DNA of 64,000 nucleotides. Source: Candidatus Cryosericum terrychapinii (GTDB taxonomy: Bacteria; Caldisericota; Caldisericia; Cryosericales; Cryosericaceae). Positions 48,292 to 56,276 of this stretch are shown piece by piece (positions within the stretch are counted from its first letter, which is position 1; each line of letters begins with the position of its first letter). The stretch covers positions 1-64,000 of the forward strand of contig NZ_QXIS01000034.1 in NCBI RefSeq assembly GCF_003570925.1, read 5' to 3'. A program made the position numbers and the translations under genes. The notes below the pieces were generated by a model. The model did not search any database and was not told where the DNA came from. It worked only from the letters and a program-made list of their open reading frames with translations.

Positions 48292-49050
48292 TCAGGCCAA
48301 GAGCACCTTACTCAGGAAACTCAGTGTACGCTCCTGCTGAGGATGCTCGAATACCTCAGAAGGAGATCCGGACTCAATGATGAGGCCCTGATCCATGAAA
48401 ATCACGCGGTCCGCGACTTCCTTCGCAAAACCCATCTCATGTGTGACGACAATCATTGTCATGCCTTCATCCGCAAGTCTGACCATCACGTCGAGGACCT
48501 CATGAATCAACTCCACGTCAATCGAGGACGTCGGCTCGTCGAACAGCATGAGCTTCGGGTGCATGGCAAGCGCACGTGCTATGGCCACCCGCTGTTGCTC
48601 ACCGCCACTCATCTGACCAGGCTTGTGATCGGCGCGATGCGACAGACCGACCTTCGCCAGAAGTTCCATTGCCTCAACCTCAGCCGCTTTGCGAGCCGTC
48701 TTCTTGACGACGATAGGGCCTAGAGCGACGTTCTGAAGAGCGGTGAGGTGAGGAAACACGTTGAACTGTTGAAACACCATGCCGATGTCTTCTCTCAATC
48801 TGCGAATGTCACACTTGCCTGGCTCGACGAGCTTGCCGTCGAATGTTATGCGGCCGGCCGACGGGGGCTCTATCCAGTTGATGCACCTCACCAGTGTACT
48901 CTTTCCCGAACCTGAGGGCCCCATCAGGACCAGCCGTTCCTTGAAATCCATGTCGAAGCTGACCCCCTTGATGACTTCGAGAGAGCCGAACGACTTGTGC
49001 AGGTCGTCGACGACGAGCAATTTCCCCTGTGACATCATGCTGCCAGCCAT
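48292..49050 (-). CDS. glnQ: Polar amino acid ABC importer ATPase (GlnQ type)
   Basis: A 252-residue ABC ATPase. Walker A is GPSGSGKST near 44, Q-loop [18 protein letters not shown], signature [16 protein letters not shown] near 150 and Walker [14 protein letters not shown], with Ser-Ile replacing the usual Ala-Leu of the D-loop. Switch His is in [19 protein letters not shown]. These match the amino-acid subfamily. The start overlaps closely with the permease stop (1 base apart). Cargo class is inferred from the family and the binding protein. Confidence 0.9.
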
Positions 49051-49051
49051 T

Positions 49052-49696
49052 TCACTCTACCTTCTTCTCGAGATTTCGGGACCACTGCATGACCGGAGTA
49101 GTCATGATCAAGTAGATGAGTGCTGCGCCGATGAGCGGCGACAAAAAGTTGGCGGTGCGGGCGCCGATGATCTTCGCATTGAAGAGAAGATCCTGCATCG
49201 CAATGACGCTGACCAGGGAAGTATCCTTGATCAATGCCGCAAACTCATTGGCAAGCGGCGGCAGAACTCGCCGGAACGTCTGCGGGAGGATAACATGGCG
49301 CAGTGCCTGCGCCCGATTCATGCCCAGCGAGAAAGCGGCTTCAGACTGTCCCTTGGGAATTGATTCCACAGCCGCTCTGAAGACCTCCGCTATGTAGGCT
49401 GCATAGCATACTGCAAGAGAAACCACGGCGGCAGGGAACTGAGGCAGGTTCAGTCCTATCCTCGGGAGAGCATAGTACACGATCAGAATCAGCAGCAAAG
49501 CCGGCGTCCCGCGAATGGCCTCGATGTAGACACGCGTAATGGCGCCGATGACCTTTCCACCAAACATGTTCAACAGCCCCACCAGAAGCCCAGCGACAGT
49601 CGCAAAGATCATCGAGGCGACCGTCAGTGTAAGCGTGGTCCATGCACCTGCCAGGAGGAACGGCAGGTTGTCGAAGATGATCGACCACTTAATCAT
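49052..49696 (-). CDS. glnP: Polar amino acid ABC importer permease (GlnP/HisM type)
   Basis: A 214-residue permease with about five spans. It carries the amino-acid-subfamily motif [20 protein letters not shown] near 58 and the EAA loop [62 protein letters not shown]. It lies 24 bases after the binding-protein gene and couples with the ATPase. Confidence 0.92.
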
Positions 49697-49720: not shown

Positions 49721-50506
49721 TTACTTGGGCAGGTATGGCGGGTCGGCAAAGAAGTACTTGCGGTAGAGGGTCGCGTACGTCCCATCCGCAACCACTTTGC
49801 GAAGGGCGGCATCGATGTCGCTCTTGAGTTGAGTGTCGTCTTTCCGCACGGCGATACCATACAGCTGTGTCAGATCCTGGCCAGCTATCGAAGTCGTATC
49901 GATAACCTTCAATGTAGGATGCGTACTGGCATAGGCCGTGCACACGGGATAGTCGTTCACCACTGCGTCGATCCTGCCATTTTCGAGGTCCTGGGTGGCA
50001 AGCTGGATGTCGGGGTACGAGTTGACCTTCACGCCGGTGATCAGCTTGGCATCAATCTCGCCTGTCGTGCCAACCTGAACGCCAACCGTCTTTCCCACGA
50101 GGTCCTCGGGTTTGGTGATATTGTTCTTGGCCGGGTTGTACATGATGCCCATGTCCGACCGGTAGTAGGGAATGGAGAAACTGACCTCCTTCTCGCGTAA
50201 GGGGGTAATCGTCATGGCGGCACAGACAGCGTCGAACTTCTTTCCCTCCAGGGCAAGGAGAAGTCCATCAAAAGCCTCACTGGTCAGATTGCTGGTCCTG
50301 CCCATCTTCGCTGCGATGGCTTCCATCAGTTCGACGTCAAACCCTGTGGGCTTGTTGGCTGCATCGGCGTATTCGAATGGCTGATACGTCGGGTCAGTCC
50401 CCCAGTTGAGTGTCCCAGTCTGAGTCTTGCACCCTGTCAAGACAGTGACGATCACTGCAGCAACAACTATCAAGACGACAATACTGGTAAATGCTGTCTT
50501 CTTCAT
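49721..50506 (-). CDS. Amino-acid-binding lipoprotein of the importer (copy 1)
   Basis: ATG 50506 follows AGGAGGAG and opens a lipoprotein signal (MKKTAFTSIVVLIVVAAVIVTVLTGC), giving 261 residues of the SBP_bac_3 family. The ligand pocket pattern is WGTDPTYQPFEYADAANKPTGFDVELMEAI, AAMTITPLREKEVSFSIPYY and DAVVNDYPVC. It is the first gene of the binding-protein, permease, ATPase operon. The C-terminal half is almost identical, including at silent sites, to the second binding protein at 51580-52416, while the N-terminal lobe differs clearly. Confidence 0.93.
   Translation of the reverse strand: MKKTAFTSIVVLIVVAAVIVTVLTGCKTQTGTLNWGTDPTYQPFEYADAANKPTGFDVELMEAIAAKMGRTSNLTSEAFDGLLLALEGKKFDAVCAAMTITPLREKEVSFSIPYYRSDMGIMYNPAKNNITKPEDLVGKTVGVQVGTTGEIDAKLITGVKVNSYPDIQLATQDLENGRIDAVVNDYPVCTAYASTHPTLKVIDTTSIAGQDLTQLYGIAVRKDDTQLKSDIDAALRKVVADGTYATLYRKYFFADPPYLPK
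49846..50217 (-). repeat. Inverted near-identical repeat, copy A (inside binding-protein gene 1)
   Basis: About 370 bases nearly identical, in opposite orientation, to 51907-52277. Runs of 60 or more bases without a difference (for instance across the codons for SFSIPYYRSDMGIMYNPAKN) show recent copying or recombination. Confidence 0.85.
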
Positions 50507-50568
50507 CCTTCTCCTCCTGCATGATTCAGATTTCTGGCAACCGTCGACTGAGCGAGCCACCCTATATT

Positions 50569-50587
50569 GCACTGCGAAGAACAGTGC
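50569..50587. promoter_or_regulatory. Inverted repeat in the divergent promoter region
   Basis: GCACTG and CAGTGC separated by 7 bases lie between binding-protein gene 1 (minus) and the small membrane protein (plus), flanked by TATATT (50563-50568) and TATACT (50593-50598). The region 50507-50600 has no gene; an operator is plausible, but its regulator is unknown. Confidence 0.4.
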
Positions 50588-50600
50588 TACCCTATACTTT

Positions 50601-50855
50601 GTGCAATCCCCAAGGAAAGTAAAGCATGGAAGCGAGCCGGCTCATCTGGCGGGCGCAGCAGACATCGGTCTCGTTCTGGTCGCCTGCGCTGCCTCCGTGG
50701 GAGCTTTTGTTATGCGCCTCGTCGACAGACCACCGGGTTGGTTAGTCTTGGCAGTTGTTGGTAGTATGAGTGCGCTGGGCTTGGCCGGTGCAAGCTTTAT
50801 CGCGGATTTTGCTGAGACTCGTGCAAAGCCACTGCATCACAAGGAGGAATACTGA
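50601..50855 (+). CDS. Small two-span membrane protein of uncertain start
   Basis: This frame encodes a clear hydrophobic hairpin (IGLVLVACAASVGAFVMRLVDRPPGWLVLAVVGSMSALGLAGASFIADF) and a basic C-terminus. Its stop overlaps the carbonic anhydrase ATG by one base (TGATG), so it is probably translated. The start is unresolved. GTG 50601 is the first legal start but almost coincides with the predicted transcription start, whereas the best ribosome site and ATG (50626) lie in another frame. A one-base slip near 50630-50670 would join them. Function unknown. Confidence 0.5.
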   Translation: MQSPRKVKHGSEPAHLAGAADIGLVLVACAASVGAFVMRLVDRPPGWLVLAVVGSMSALGLAGASFIADFAETRAKPLHHKEEY

Positions 50856-51388
50856 TGTCCGGGATTCTTCGTGCGTTCGACGGAAAGATCCCAACCGTAG
50901 CATCCACAGCATTTGTCGCCGACACGGCCGTCCTGATAGGAGACGTGACCATCGAGGAAGGTGCCAGCATCTGGTATGGGGTGGTCCTCCGTGGCGACAT
51001 TGCACCTATCGTCGTGCACTGCAACGCGAACGTCCAGGACAACGTGGTGGGGCACGTAGATAGCGGCATCCCTCTCATTGTCGGCGAGGGGGCCACTGTC
51101 GGCCACAGCGCCGTCTTGCATGGCTGCACCATCGGTCACCATGCCATGGTGGGCATGCATGCCACCGTCCTCACAGGAGCCACTGTCGGTGACGAGGCAG
51201 TGGTAGCCGCAGCAGCGCTGGTCCCTGAGAACAGGGTCGTGCCTGCCCGGTCACTCTCGATGGGTGTCCCAGCACGCGCTGTACGGTCACTTGCGGACGA
51301 GGAGATACAGGAACTCCATCGTCAAGCTCAGGACTACGCCAGATTGGCAGTGATGTCCATGGCAAACTCTGAACACAAACAACCCTGA
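50855..51388 (+). CDS. Gamma-class carbonic anhydrase-like protein
   Basis: A 177-residue left-handed beta-helix protein of the gamma-CA/YrdA/PaaY type, trimeric in known structures with metal between subunits. The three metal-binding His are visible in NVQDNVVGHVDSG, ATVGHSAVLHGC and the following repeats. IGHHAMVGMHATVL carries two extra His where most relatives have IGD and GMGA, which is unusual. AAGGAGG lies upstream of ATG 50855. Activity as carbonic anhydrase or as an acyl-CoA-related enzyme cannot be decided. Confidence 0.9.
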   Translation: MSGILRAFDGKIPTVASTAFVADTAVLIGDVTIEEGASIWYGVVLRGDIAPIVVHCNANVQDNVVGHVDSGIPLIVGEGATVGHSAVLHGCTIGHHAMVGMHATVLTGATVGDEAVVAAAALVPENRVVPARSLSMGVPARAVRSLADEEIQELHRQAQDYARLAVMSMANSEHKQP

Positions 51389-51448
51389 CATCGGACTGAT
51401 CGACATCCCCGTCTCCCTATTCTCTTCATCTTCTATGCACATTTCTCC

Positions 51449-51475
51449 TTGCATTTTCTGACCCTTCCCTATACT
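51449..51475 (+). promoter_or_regulatory. Possible promoter of binding-protein gene 2
   Basis: TTGCAT (51449-51454) and TATACT (51470-51475) are only 15 bases apart, about 105 bases before the start. The rest of 51389-51579 shows nothing else I can name. Confidence 0.35.
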
Positions 51476-51579
51476 TCACCCAACCAATGCTACAAGCCAA
51501 CCAGCTGAAGAGCCCCTTGGTAACGACCCGACGTAGGTCGCGCCGTATCTTTATACTCTGGCAACAAGGAGAGTCAGAT

Positions 51580-52416
51580 ATGAGCAAAACTCGTACATCA
51601 CGGTGGGGTGCGGTCTTCACTGTCGCACTCGTTCTATGTCTTCTGGTCCTTTCGGGCTGTCACGCTGCAGCTACGTCCTCCGACCTCGACCGCGTCAAAC
51701 AGGACGGCGCTCTGACTGTCGGCAACGACACAACATACGCTCCGTTCGAGTTCGTCGACAGTACCAACAAGCCGACGGGTTTCGACATCGACCTTATTGC
51801 CGCCGTCGCCCAAAAACTTGGGCTGAAATCGGACGTTGTGACCACAGCTTGGGATGGCATCATCCCTGCCCTCCAGACGGAGAAGTTTGAGGTTGTCATC
51901 TCGTCCATGACGATCACCCCCGACCGCGAGAAAGAGGTCAGTTTCTCCATTCCCTACTACCGGTCGGACATGGGCATCATGTACAACCCGGCCAAGAACA
52001 CTATCACCAAACCCGAGGACCTCGTGGGAAAGACGGTTGGCGTTCAGGTTGGCACGACAGGCGAGGCGTCTGCCAAACTGATCACCGGCGTGAAGGTCAA
52101 CTCGTACCCCGACATCCAGCTTGCCACCCAGGACCTCGAGAATGGCAGGATCGACGCTGTAGTAAACGACTCTCCTGTGTGCGTTTTCTATGCCAGTACG
52201 CATCCTACATTGAAGGTCTTCAGTACCACCTCGATAGCTGGTCAGGACCTGACACAGCTGTATGGTATCGCCATGCGCCTCGAAGACAAGCAACTGAAGG
52301 CCGCTGTCGACAAGGCCCTTCAGGACCTTGTTAAGGATGGCACATACGACACCATCTACGCCAAATGGTTTGGTGGAGGGACACCCGACTTTCGTCCAGG
52401 AGACCAGAACCCCTGA
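51580..52416 (+). CDS. Amino-acid-binding lipoprotein (copy 2, orphan)
   Basis: ATG 51580 follows AAGGAG and opens a signal peptide with lipobox LVLSGC near residue 26 (RWGAVFTVALVLCLLVLSGC), giving 278 residues of the SBP_bac_3 family. The N-terminal lobe (TVGNDTTYAPFEFVDSTNKPTGFDIDLIAAV, AWDGIIPALQTEKFEVVISS) differs from copy 1. The segment from EKEVSFSIPYY to QDLTQLYGIA is nearly identical to it. No permease or ATPase gene follows, so it probably delivers a different amino acid to the GlnP/GlnQ pair of the neighbouring operon. Confidence 0.92.
   Translation: MSKTRTSRWGAVFTVALVLCLLVLSGCHAAATSSDLDRVKQDGALTVGNDTTYAPFEFVDSTNKPTGFDIDLIAAVAQKLGLKSDVVTTAWDGIIPALQTEKFEVVISSMTITPDREKEVSFSIPYYRSDMGIMYNPAKNTITKPEDLVGKTVGVQVGTTGEASAKLITGVKVNSYPDIQLATQDLENGRIDAVVNDSPVCVFYASTHPTLKVFSTTSIAGQDLTQLYGIAMRLEDKQLKAAVDKALQDLVKDGTYDTIYAKWFGGGTPDFRPGDQNP
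51907..52277 (+). repeat. Inverted near-identical repeat, copy B (inside binding-protein gene 2)
   Basis: The partner of 49846-50217 in opposite orientation. The pair encloses about 1.7 kb containing both gene 5' halves, both promoters, the small membrane gene and the carbonic anhydrase gene. Confidence 0.85.
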
Positions 52417-52438: not shown

Positions 52439-52485
52439 AGTTCATGTCCAGCCGTACCCGTCTGGGGTACGACTGGACATGAACT
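52439..52485. terminator. Long hairpin between convergent genes
   Basis: A 21-bp stem with one mismatch (AGTTCATGTCCAG... with ...CTGGACATGAACT) around the loop GTCTG. It lies between binding-protein gene 2 and the ABC-2 operon end. No U-tract is present, so it may act as a bidirectional terminator or transcript end protector. Confidence 0.55.
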
Positions 52486-55491: not shown

Positions 55492-55992
55492 CTACATGAA
55501 GCGCTCGAAACGCTCCTTGCCGGCCTTGCAGACTGGACAGACCAGTGGAGGCTGCAGCCTTGCGCACAAGTATCCACAGACCTTGCATCGCCAGACCGGA
55601 AACGCGAGCCCAGCCACAGGCACCTGTTCCATCTCCGTCGCTCCGGCAGTTGGCCCGCCGACCGGACGCCGGTCCGGAATGGATGTTGCGGTCTTCTCGC
55701 CACGGCTGATCTCGGGCGAGACATACAGCGCACAGTAGCAGGCGCCGTATTCGTCGAGGTCAGCGTCTCGGTAGTCACACGGACAGACGAGGTCGACATC
55801 CCGCTCCCTCACTCCTGACGCCAGACGGCAGGGACAGGCACGATATCCGTAGCGTGCCTCATTCTCCAGCAGACCCCGGACCAGATCCCTGGCAAAAGCG
55901 TCGTCAGGGTTGACAGAGTATCCTGCGTCCCGTGCCTCGAGGACCAGTCTCTCCCAGACCTCAGCCACACGCTCGTCCGGTATCCTGCTCAT
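55492..55992 (-). CDS. Ferredoxin-thioredoxin reductase catalytic-subunit-like protein fused to a rubredoxin-like domain
   Basis: Residues 1-~95 match the catalytic chain of ferredoxin:thioredoxin reductase, with the three Cys pairs ACPCRLA (53, 55), VCPCDYRD (70, 72) and GACYCALY (85, 87) that hold the [4Fe-4S] cluster and redox disulfide. Residues ~130-166 add a rubredoxin-like knuckle pair ([10 protein letters not shown] and LVCPVCKAG). It overlaps the glutaredoxin-like gene by four bases, suggesting that ferredoxin electrons reduce that protein through it. The usual variable chain of plant-type FTR is absent, as in other anaerobes. Confidence 0.88.
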
Positions 55993-56276
55993 TCAGCCGC
56001 GAGCTCCCGAATCTTGTCTTCCTGGAAACCTACGACACAATCCTTGCCATCCAGGACGATGGTCGGAAACGAGCACGCTGGGTTCCACTTCAGGACCTCC
56101 TGCTTGGCCAGTTCCTTGTTTCCACCCTCCTGGTCGTCGACATCGATGTAGTCGTAGCCCACGCTCAGCTCCTGAAGCAACGCCTTGGTCTTGTGACACC
56201 AGCCGCAGGTCGTCAGCGCATAGAGGAAGACCTTATGCTTGTTGTGCATTCCTTCGACATGCTTGGGTTCCAACAC
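55989..56276 (-). CDS. Glutaredoxin/thioredoxin-like protein
   Basis: A 95-residue thioredoxin-fold protein with active site [10 protein letters not shown] (Cys24, Cys27), cis-Pro in [10 protein letters not shown] and the glutaredoxin-like [10 protein letters not shown]-terminus. Met10 is an alternative start. It overlaps the FTR-like gene start by four bases and follows ltaE by 27 bases. It probably receives electrons from the FTR-like protein and reduces protein disulfides. Confidence 0.9.

Follow-up and report, generated by a model that had tools for sequence, protein, structure and literature searches.

Evidence for ectopic gene conversion within one lobe of two divergent amino-acid-binding protein genes in Candidatus Cryosericum terrychapinii

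Two amino-acid-binding protein genes of Candidatus Cryosericum terrychapinii, designated SBP1 and SBP2, face away from each other and share a nearly identical inverted stretch, raising the question of whether this likeness serves a DNA switch or records copying from one gene into the other. The analysed DNA (the window) comprised 64,000 nucleotides, positions 1 to 64,000 of contig NZ_QXIS01000034.1. An earlier note, made from the letters of this DNA alone, had proposed that recombination between the inverted copies flips the interval between them and exchanges promoter, signal peptide, and first lobe between the two genes, with gene conversion as the minimum reading. The locus was therefore compared base by base, by segment-wise phylogeny, and by gene order across the genus.

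The locus and its genome

The source genome is a draft of 1.49 Mb in 37 contigs with 81% completeness, and both genes lie on one 71-kb contig (Table 1). Both proteins scored above the curated cut-off of the full-length PF00497 profile (130 bits for SBP1 and 147 bits for SBP2 against 26.4 bits) and reached none of the NCBIfam equivalog cut-offs, while lipoprotein-type signal sequences with a TGC or SGC lipobox could be read in both. The solved structures closest to SBP1 were AncQR, ArgBP, and GlnBP. The predicted SBP2 model (pLDDT 77.6) matched ArgBP, AncQR, and GlnBP with E-values down to 2e-25, supporting the two-lobe type II binding protein fold expected of it.

SBP1 is accompanied in its operon by one permease and one ATPase, and this permease was the only polar-amino-acid permease above the family cut-off in the 81%-complete genome, from which ~19% is missing. 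ABC-2 transporter genes converge on the 3' side of SBP2, and the inverted repeat just past SBP2 is possibly a terminator between the converging genes, although it carries no clear T run and was not listed by the terminator scan. An Rfam search of the window returned no RNA element and the promoter scan no sigma-70-like sites. Elsewhere in the window, a ferredoxin-thioredoxin reductase beta-like domain is fused to a rubredoxin-like domain (55492-55992), adjoined by a glutaredoxin gene (55989-56276).

Table 1. Coordinates of the features of the SBP1-SBP2 locus, numbered from the first letter of the window.
Feature	Position	Strand	Remarks
GlnQ-like ABC ATPase	48292..49050	-	Operon with SBP1 and permease
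Polar-amino-acid ABC permease	49052..49696	-	Adjoins SBP1, same operon
SBP1	49721..50506	-	Lipoprotein amino-acid-binding protein, SBP_bac_3; operon-linked; PF00497 E=5e-38
Homogenised block, SBP1 copy	49844..50188	-	Encodes lobe 2 and both hinges; 92% DNA identity, tree, diagnostic sites
Codon 157 of alignment (GTT, Val), SBP1	50072..50074	-	Candidate reverse conversion
Conversion core, SBP1 copy	50141..50221	-	Codons 108-134 of alignment
Gamma-carbonic-anhydrase-like hexapeptide protein	50855..51388	+	Between SBP1 and SBP2; orientation kept wherever present
SBP2	51580..52416	+	Orphan paralogue, SBP_bac_3; PF00497 E=3e-43; AncQR E=1e-53
Conversion core, SBP2 copy	51901..51981	+	Codons 108-134 of alignment
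Homogenised block, SBP2 copy	51934..52278	+	Mosaic; 48/54 diagnostic sites SBP1-type
Inverted repeat, 21-bp, 5-nt spacer	52439..52485	.	Just past SBP2; possible terminator

Extent of the homogenised block and the part of the protein it encodes

Inverted arms of 518 nt were found at 49758-50275 and 51847-52364, being 83% complementary and 1571 nt apart. Base-by-base alignment of the two genes, which the earlier note had proposed as a check, displayed identity that was far from uniform along their length: 56% across the N-terminal lobe-1 codons (110/198), 92% across the block (317 of 345 positions), and 54% across the C-terminal codons (65/120). The first 210 bp of the block were 96% identical, and exact matches extended over 67 bp (50188-50122 with 51934-52000, the longest exact repeat), 64 bp (50120-50057 with 52002-52065), and 44 bp (50026-49983 with 52096-52139). 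The near-identical inverted halves and the runs of more than 60 unchanged bases reported previously were thus recovered, and the outer limits given for them (49846 and 52277) were accurate. Matching variable sites formed a run of up to 41, compared to a maximum of 28 in 20,000 shuffles, which excludes chance. The SBP2 copy of the block is a mosaic, SBP1-type at 51979-52143 and over most of 52196-52277, with residual SBP2-type or private bases between.

Assignment of the block to a protein domain was based on GlnBP, in which the small domain comprises residues 90-180 and the hinges residues 85-89 and 181-185 (PMC7400645). In phmmer alignments, SBP2 residues 42-266 paired with 2-223 and GlnBP position 182 corresponded to SBP2 residue 225, placing hinge 1 of SBP2 at about residues 125-129 and hinge 2 at about 224-228. 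The isolated HisJ construct 6xks (145 residues) agreed with this mapping by matching SBP2 45-131 and resuming at 229. With lobe 2 mapped to about residues 125-228, the homogenised block covers residues 119-233 and, judged from these alignments, consists of lobe 2 plus both hinges. Lobe 1 is formed by the N-terminal and C-terminal segments together. Because identity falls once more beyond the 3' end of the block, homogenisation is limited to the central part of each gene, which has diverged lobe-1 sequence on both sides. The previous observation is confirmed, with the correction that the shared part is not simply the second half of each gene.

Conversion across the genus, its direction, limits, and recurrence

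The comparison set included 14 other Candidatus Cryosericum genomes holding one or both SBP genes. Segment trees of the N-terminal lobe-1 and C-terminal parts separated SBP1 and SBP2 into two clades supported at 100/100, whereas in the lobe-2 tree the SBP2 genes of the window and of genome G001 fell inside SBP1 (100/99) and the nearest neighbor of the window SBP2 was the window's own SBP1 (87/98). Constraining all SBP2 genes to one clade in lobe 2 was rejected (p=0.034). SBP2 monophyly was not rejected for the 196-236 segment alone (p=0.27), and support for the 3' part of the tract therefore comes from the diagnostic sites, not from the tree test. At the 129 diagnostic sites where the window SBP2 matches either type, the ratio of SBP1-type to SBP2-type bases was 48:6 inside the block (54 sites) versus 3:72 outside it (75 sites; Fisher 6e-25). 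A one-codon insert of unconverted SBP2 genes was missing from the SBP2 genes of the window, G001, and G005, scored without the SBP2 fragment of G006, which was too short and had been translated out of frame. Over codons 134-196, third-codon positions of SBP1 and SBP2 were 92% identical in the window, 84% identical in G001, and 31-49% identical in all other species.

Within the genome, synonymous as well as replacement sites are homogenised (third positions); the lobe-2 phylogeny conflicts with the phylogeny of the flanks (segment trees and constraint test); and the flanks are unexchanged, i.e., without crossover, as displayed by the 100/100 support of the N- and C-terminal trees and the conserved gene order. 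These signals identify ectopic gene conversion between SBP1 and SBP2, a known process, as the cause, and the minimum reading of the earlier note is upheld by the agreement of segment-wise trees, diagnostic sites, and the indel marker.

The main direction is from SBP1 as main donor to SBP2 as main recipient because the window SBP1 stays among its orthologues. The window SBP1 differs from every other SBP1 orthologue at codons 157 and 191 in carrying SBP2-type bases; codon 157 is ACx (Thr) in all of these and GTx or ATx in SBP2. These two codons suggest short reverse patches from SBP2 to SBP1 or could reflect convergence.

The limits of the tract differ between species. In G001 (locus L052) it is shorter, at about codons 134-196. 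An independent patch in G005, which sits on a distant branch, covers codons 165-183 and is 100% identical, third positions included, over codons 165-180. The test against a clade of the window and G001 SBP2 genes gave p=0.074, and their tracts may derive from one ancestral event or from two. At the core around hinge 1 (codons 108-134), SBP1-SBP2 identity was higher within than between species (permutation p=0.0003) in a test that excluded the three species with longer tracts (the window species, G001, and G005), while the lobe-1 and C-terminal segments had no within-species excess of likeness. Homogenisation of this core of ~80 bp within species indicates that conversion is recurrent there across the genus.

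The region between the two genes also varied. G003 is without SBP2 and has kept SBP1 and the carbonic-anhydrase-like gene (L054:6851-7769), G005 has no carbonic-anhydrase-like gene between SBP1 and SBP2 with ~300 bp left (L056:1380-1684), and only ~550 bp separate the two genes in L069. At L062:2481-4190, the carbonic-anhydrase-like gene is split by ~1.7 kb of unrelated coding sequence, formyltransferase- and hydrolase-like by eye, and the contig is possibly chimeric. The conversion core is a spot at which short-read assemblies tend to break: contigs of four congeners (L059, L065/L066, L067/L068, and L057/L058) end inside SBP1 at or near it, in G006 also inside SBP2. Breaks within SBP1 in G006, G007, G012, and G013 were considered as inversion heterogeneity and rejected as uninformative; in G006 both genes are broken close to a tract presumed to resemble the one in its sister G001, and an overlap of ~140 bp between the G012 contigs is what a fork in the assembly graph at near-identical sequence would produce.

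Alternative readings, proposed mechanism, and known systems

In an inversion switch, crossovers at the inverted copies would turn 50188-51934 around with sufficient frequency to yield hybrid binding proteins at the population level. In its favor are the inverted orientation of the copies, their exact matches of 67 and 64 bp, and the 1.57 kb between the arms, and a survey of inverting hsdS loci accepted inverted repeats from 20 bp upward (PMC7394358). The genome also encodes RecA, making a rare crossover possible in principle. Against a switch, gene order and orientation were constant in all congeners readable at both ends, with SBP1 and the transporter on one side, SBP2 and the ABC-2 genes on the other, and the SBP genes diverging; reversed order, which the earlier note had suggested looking for in related genomes, was seen in none of these. 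No gene in any species joins the N-terminal part of SBP1 to the C-terminal part of SBP2, and the window assembly has two standard copies only and no second isomer. No recombinase was found among the neighboring genes tested, the identified ones being housekeeping or transport genes and two having no Pfam match, and the sole phage-integrase-family match of the genome lies on another contig. A switch based on RecA alone would need no local recombinase. The ends of the tract are not the same in different species, a pattern that fits homologous conversion better than site-specific recombination, and flipping could not exchange a whole lobe 1 as had been envisaged, since mismatched lobe-1 parts would be brought together by a crossover within lobe 2. 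The switch is consequently judged highly improbable.

Two readings that dispense with conversion are less probable still, to about the same degree. Recent duplication followed by fast lobe-1 divergence, or a lobe 2 kept alike by strong purifying selection or by convergence, could appeal to the conserved motifs that occur in lobe 2 of this fold, but both genes are genus-wide with a deep, fully supported split in lobe 1 and the C-terminus, the high third-position identity is limited to the window and G001, and the codon insert is lost in converted genes only. An assembly artefact placing SBP1 sequence into SBP2 through mis-joined reads draws on the draft state of the genome and on the several congener contigs that break inside SBP1; it would have to be reconciled with a longest exact repeat shorter than usual reads, a single contig spanning both genes, private differences scattered across the block, and a similar, shorter tract in L052, an independently assembled species.

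Conversion by RecA-dependent, non-crossover copying is very probably the overall explanation. SBP1 and SBP2 would be old divergent paralogues about 1 kb apart, in which a short near-identical stretch at the lobe-1/lobe-2 hinge may offer a foothold for homologous recombination, and RecA-type recombination would pair them repeatedly because this stretch is still common to both. Sequence would then be copied without crossover, mostly with the operon gene as the source and the orphan gene as the recipient, replacing nearly the whole of SBP2 lobe 2 by the SBP1 version in the window species and a shorter part in L052/G001, with a small patch apparently copied the opposite way. With non-crossover repair, each protein would keep its own N- and C-terminal segments of lobe 1 together, whereas a crossover would separate them; the roles of RecA and of the non-crossover pathway are what we infer from this pattern. 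With a single permease above the cut-off in the incomplete genome, SBP1 and SBP2 may both deliver to one transporter. The product could have been kept as both proteins dock on one shared permease, so that having lobe 2 in common would be harmless or of advantage and the ligand contacts of lobe 1 would stay different; this suggestion is tentative. A composite in which recurrent lobe-limited conversion matches lobe 2 to the shared permease as lobe 1 diverges, and occasional crossovers also give flipped chimeras in a minority of cells, is unlikely.

The process is an ordinary one, and the SBP1-SBP2 pair is a tidy, well-supported instance of ectopic gene conversion. It is a clear case, from an uncultured phylum, of conversion between diverged paralogues on the scale of a domain, provides natural chimeras with which the contributions of lobe 2 and lobe 1 to permease docking and ligand choice in family-3 binding proteins could be told apart, and cautions that whole-gene trees of such proteins can mislead. 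A literature search of partial coverage turned up no account of conversion confined to one lobe of a binding protein. One paper gives measured conversion rates for E. coli rRNA and cites rates for Salmonella tuf (PMC8022953). Conversion in rRNA operons and tufA/tufB likewise homogenises parts of dispersed copies, whereas the SBP copies are diverged (about 55% identity outside the tract), inverted, and 1.6 kb apart, with the tract confined to one lobe. HisJ and LAO (ArgT) are 70% identical family-3 binding proteins served by one permease, HisQMP2 (PMC5708682), and resemble SBP1 and SBP2 as two related proteins with one transporter, such sharing being putative for the latter, whose genes differ in their divergent arrangement around a carbonic-anhydrase-like gene. 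In phasevarions, the inverting type I hsdS loci, inverted repeats likewise lie within paralogous specificity genes of two domains (PMC7394358); the SBP locus, in contrast, is without recombinase, isomers, or chimeras and has variable tract ends rather than fixed repeat ends.
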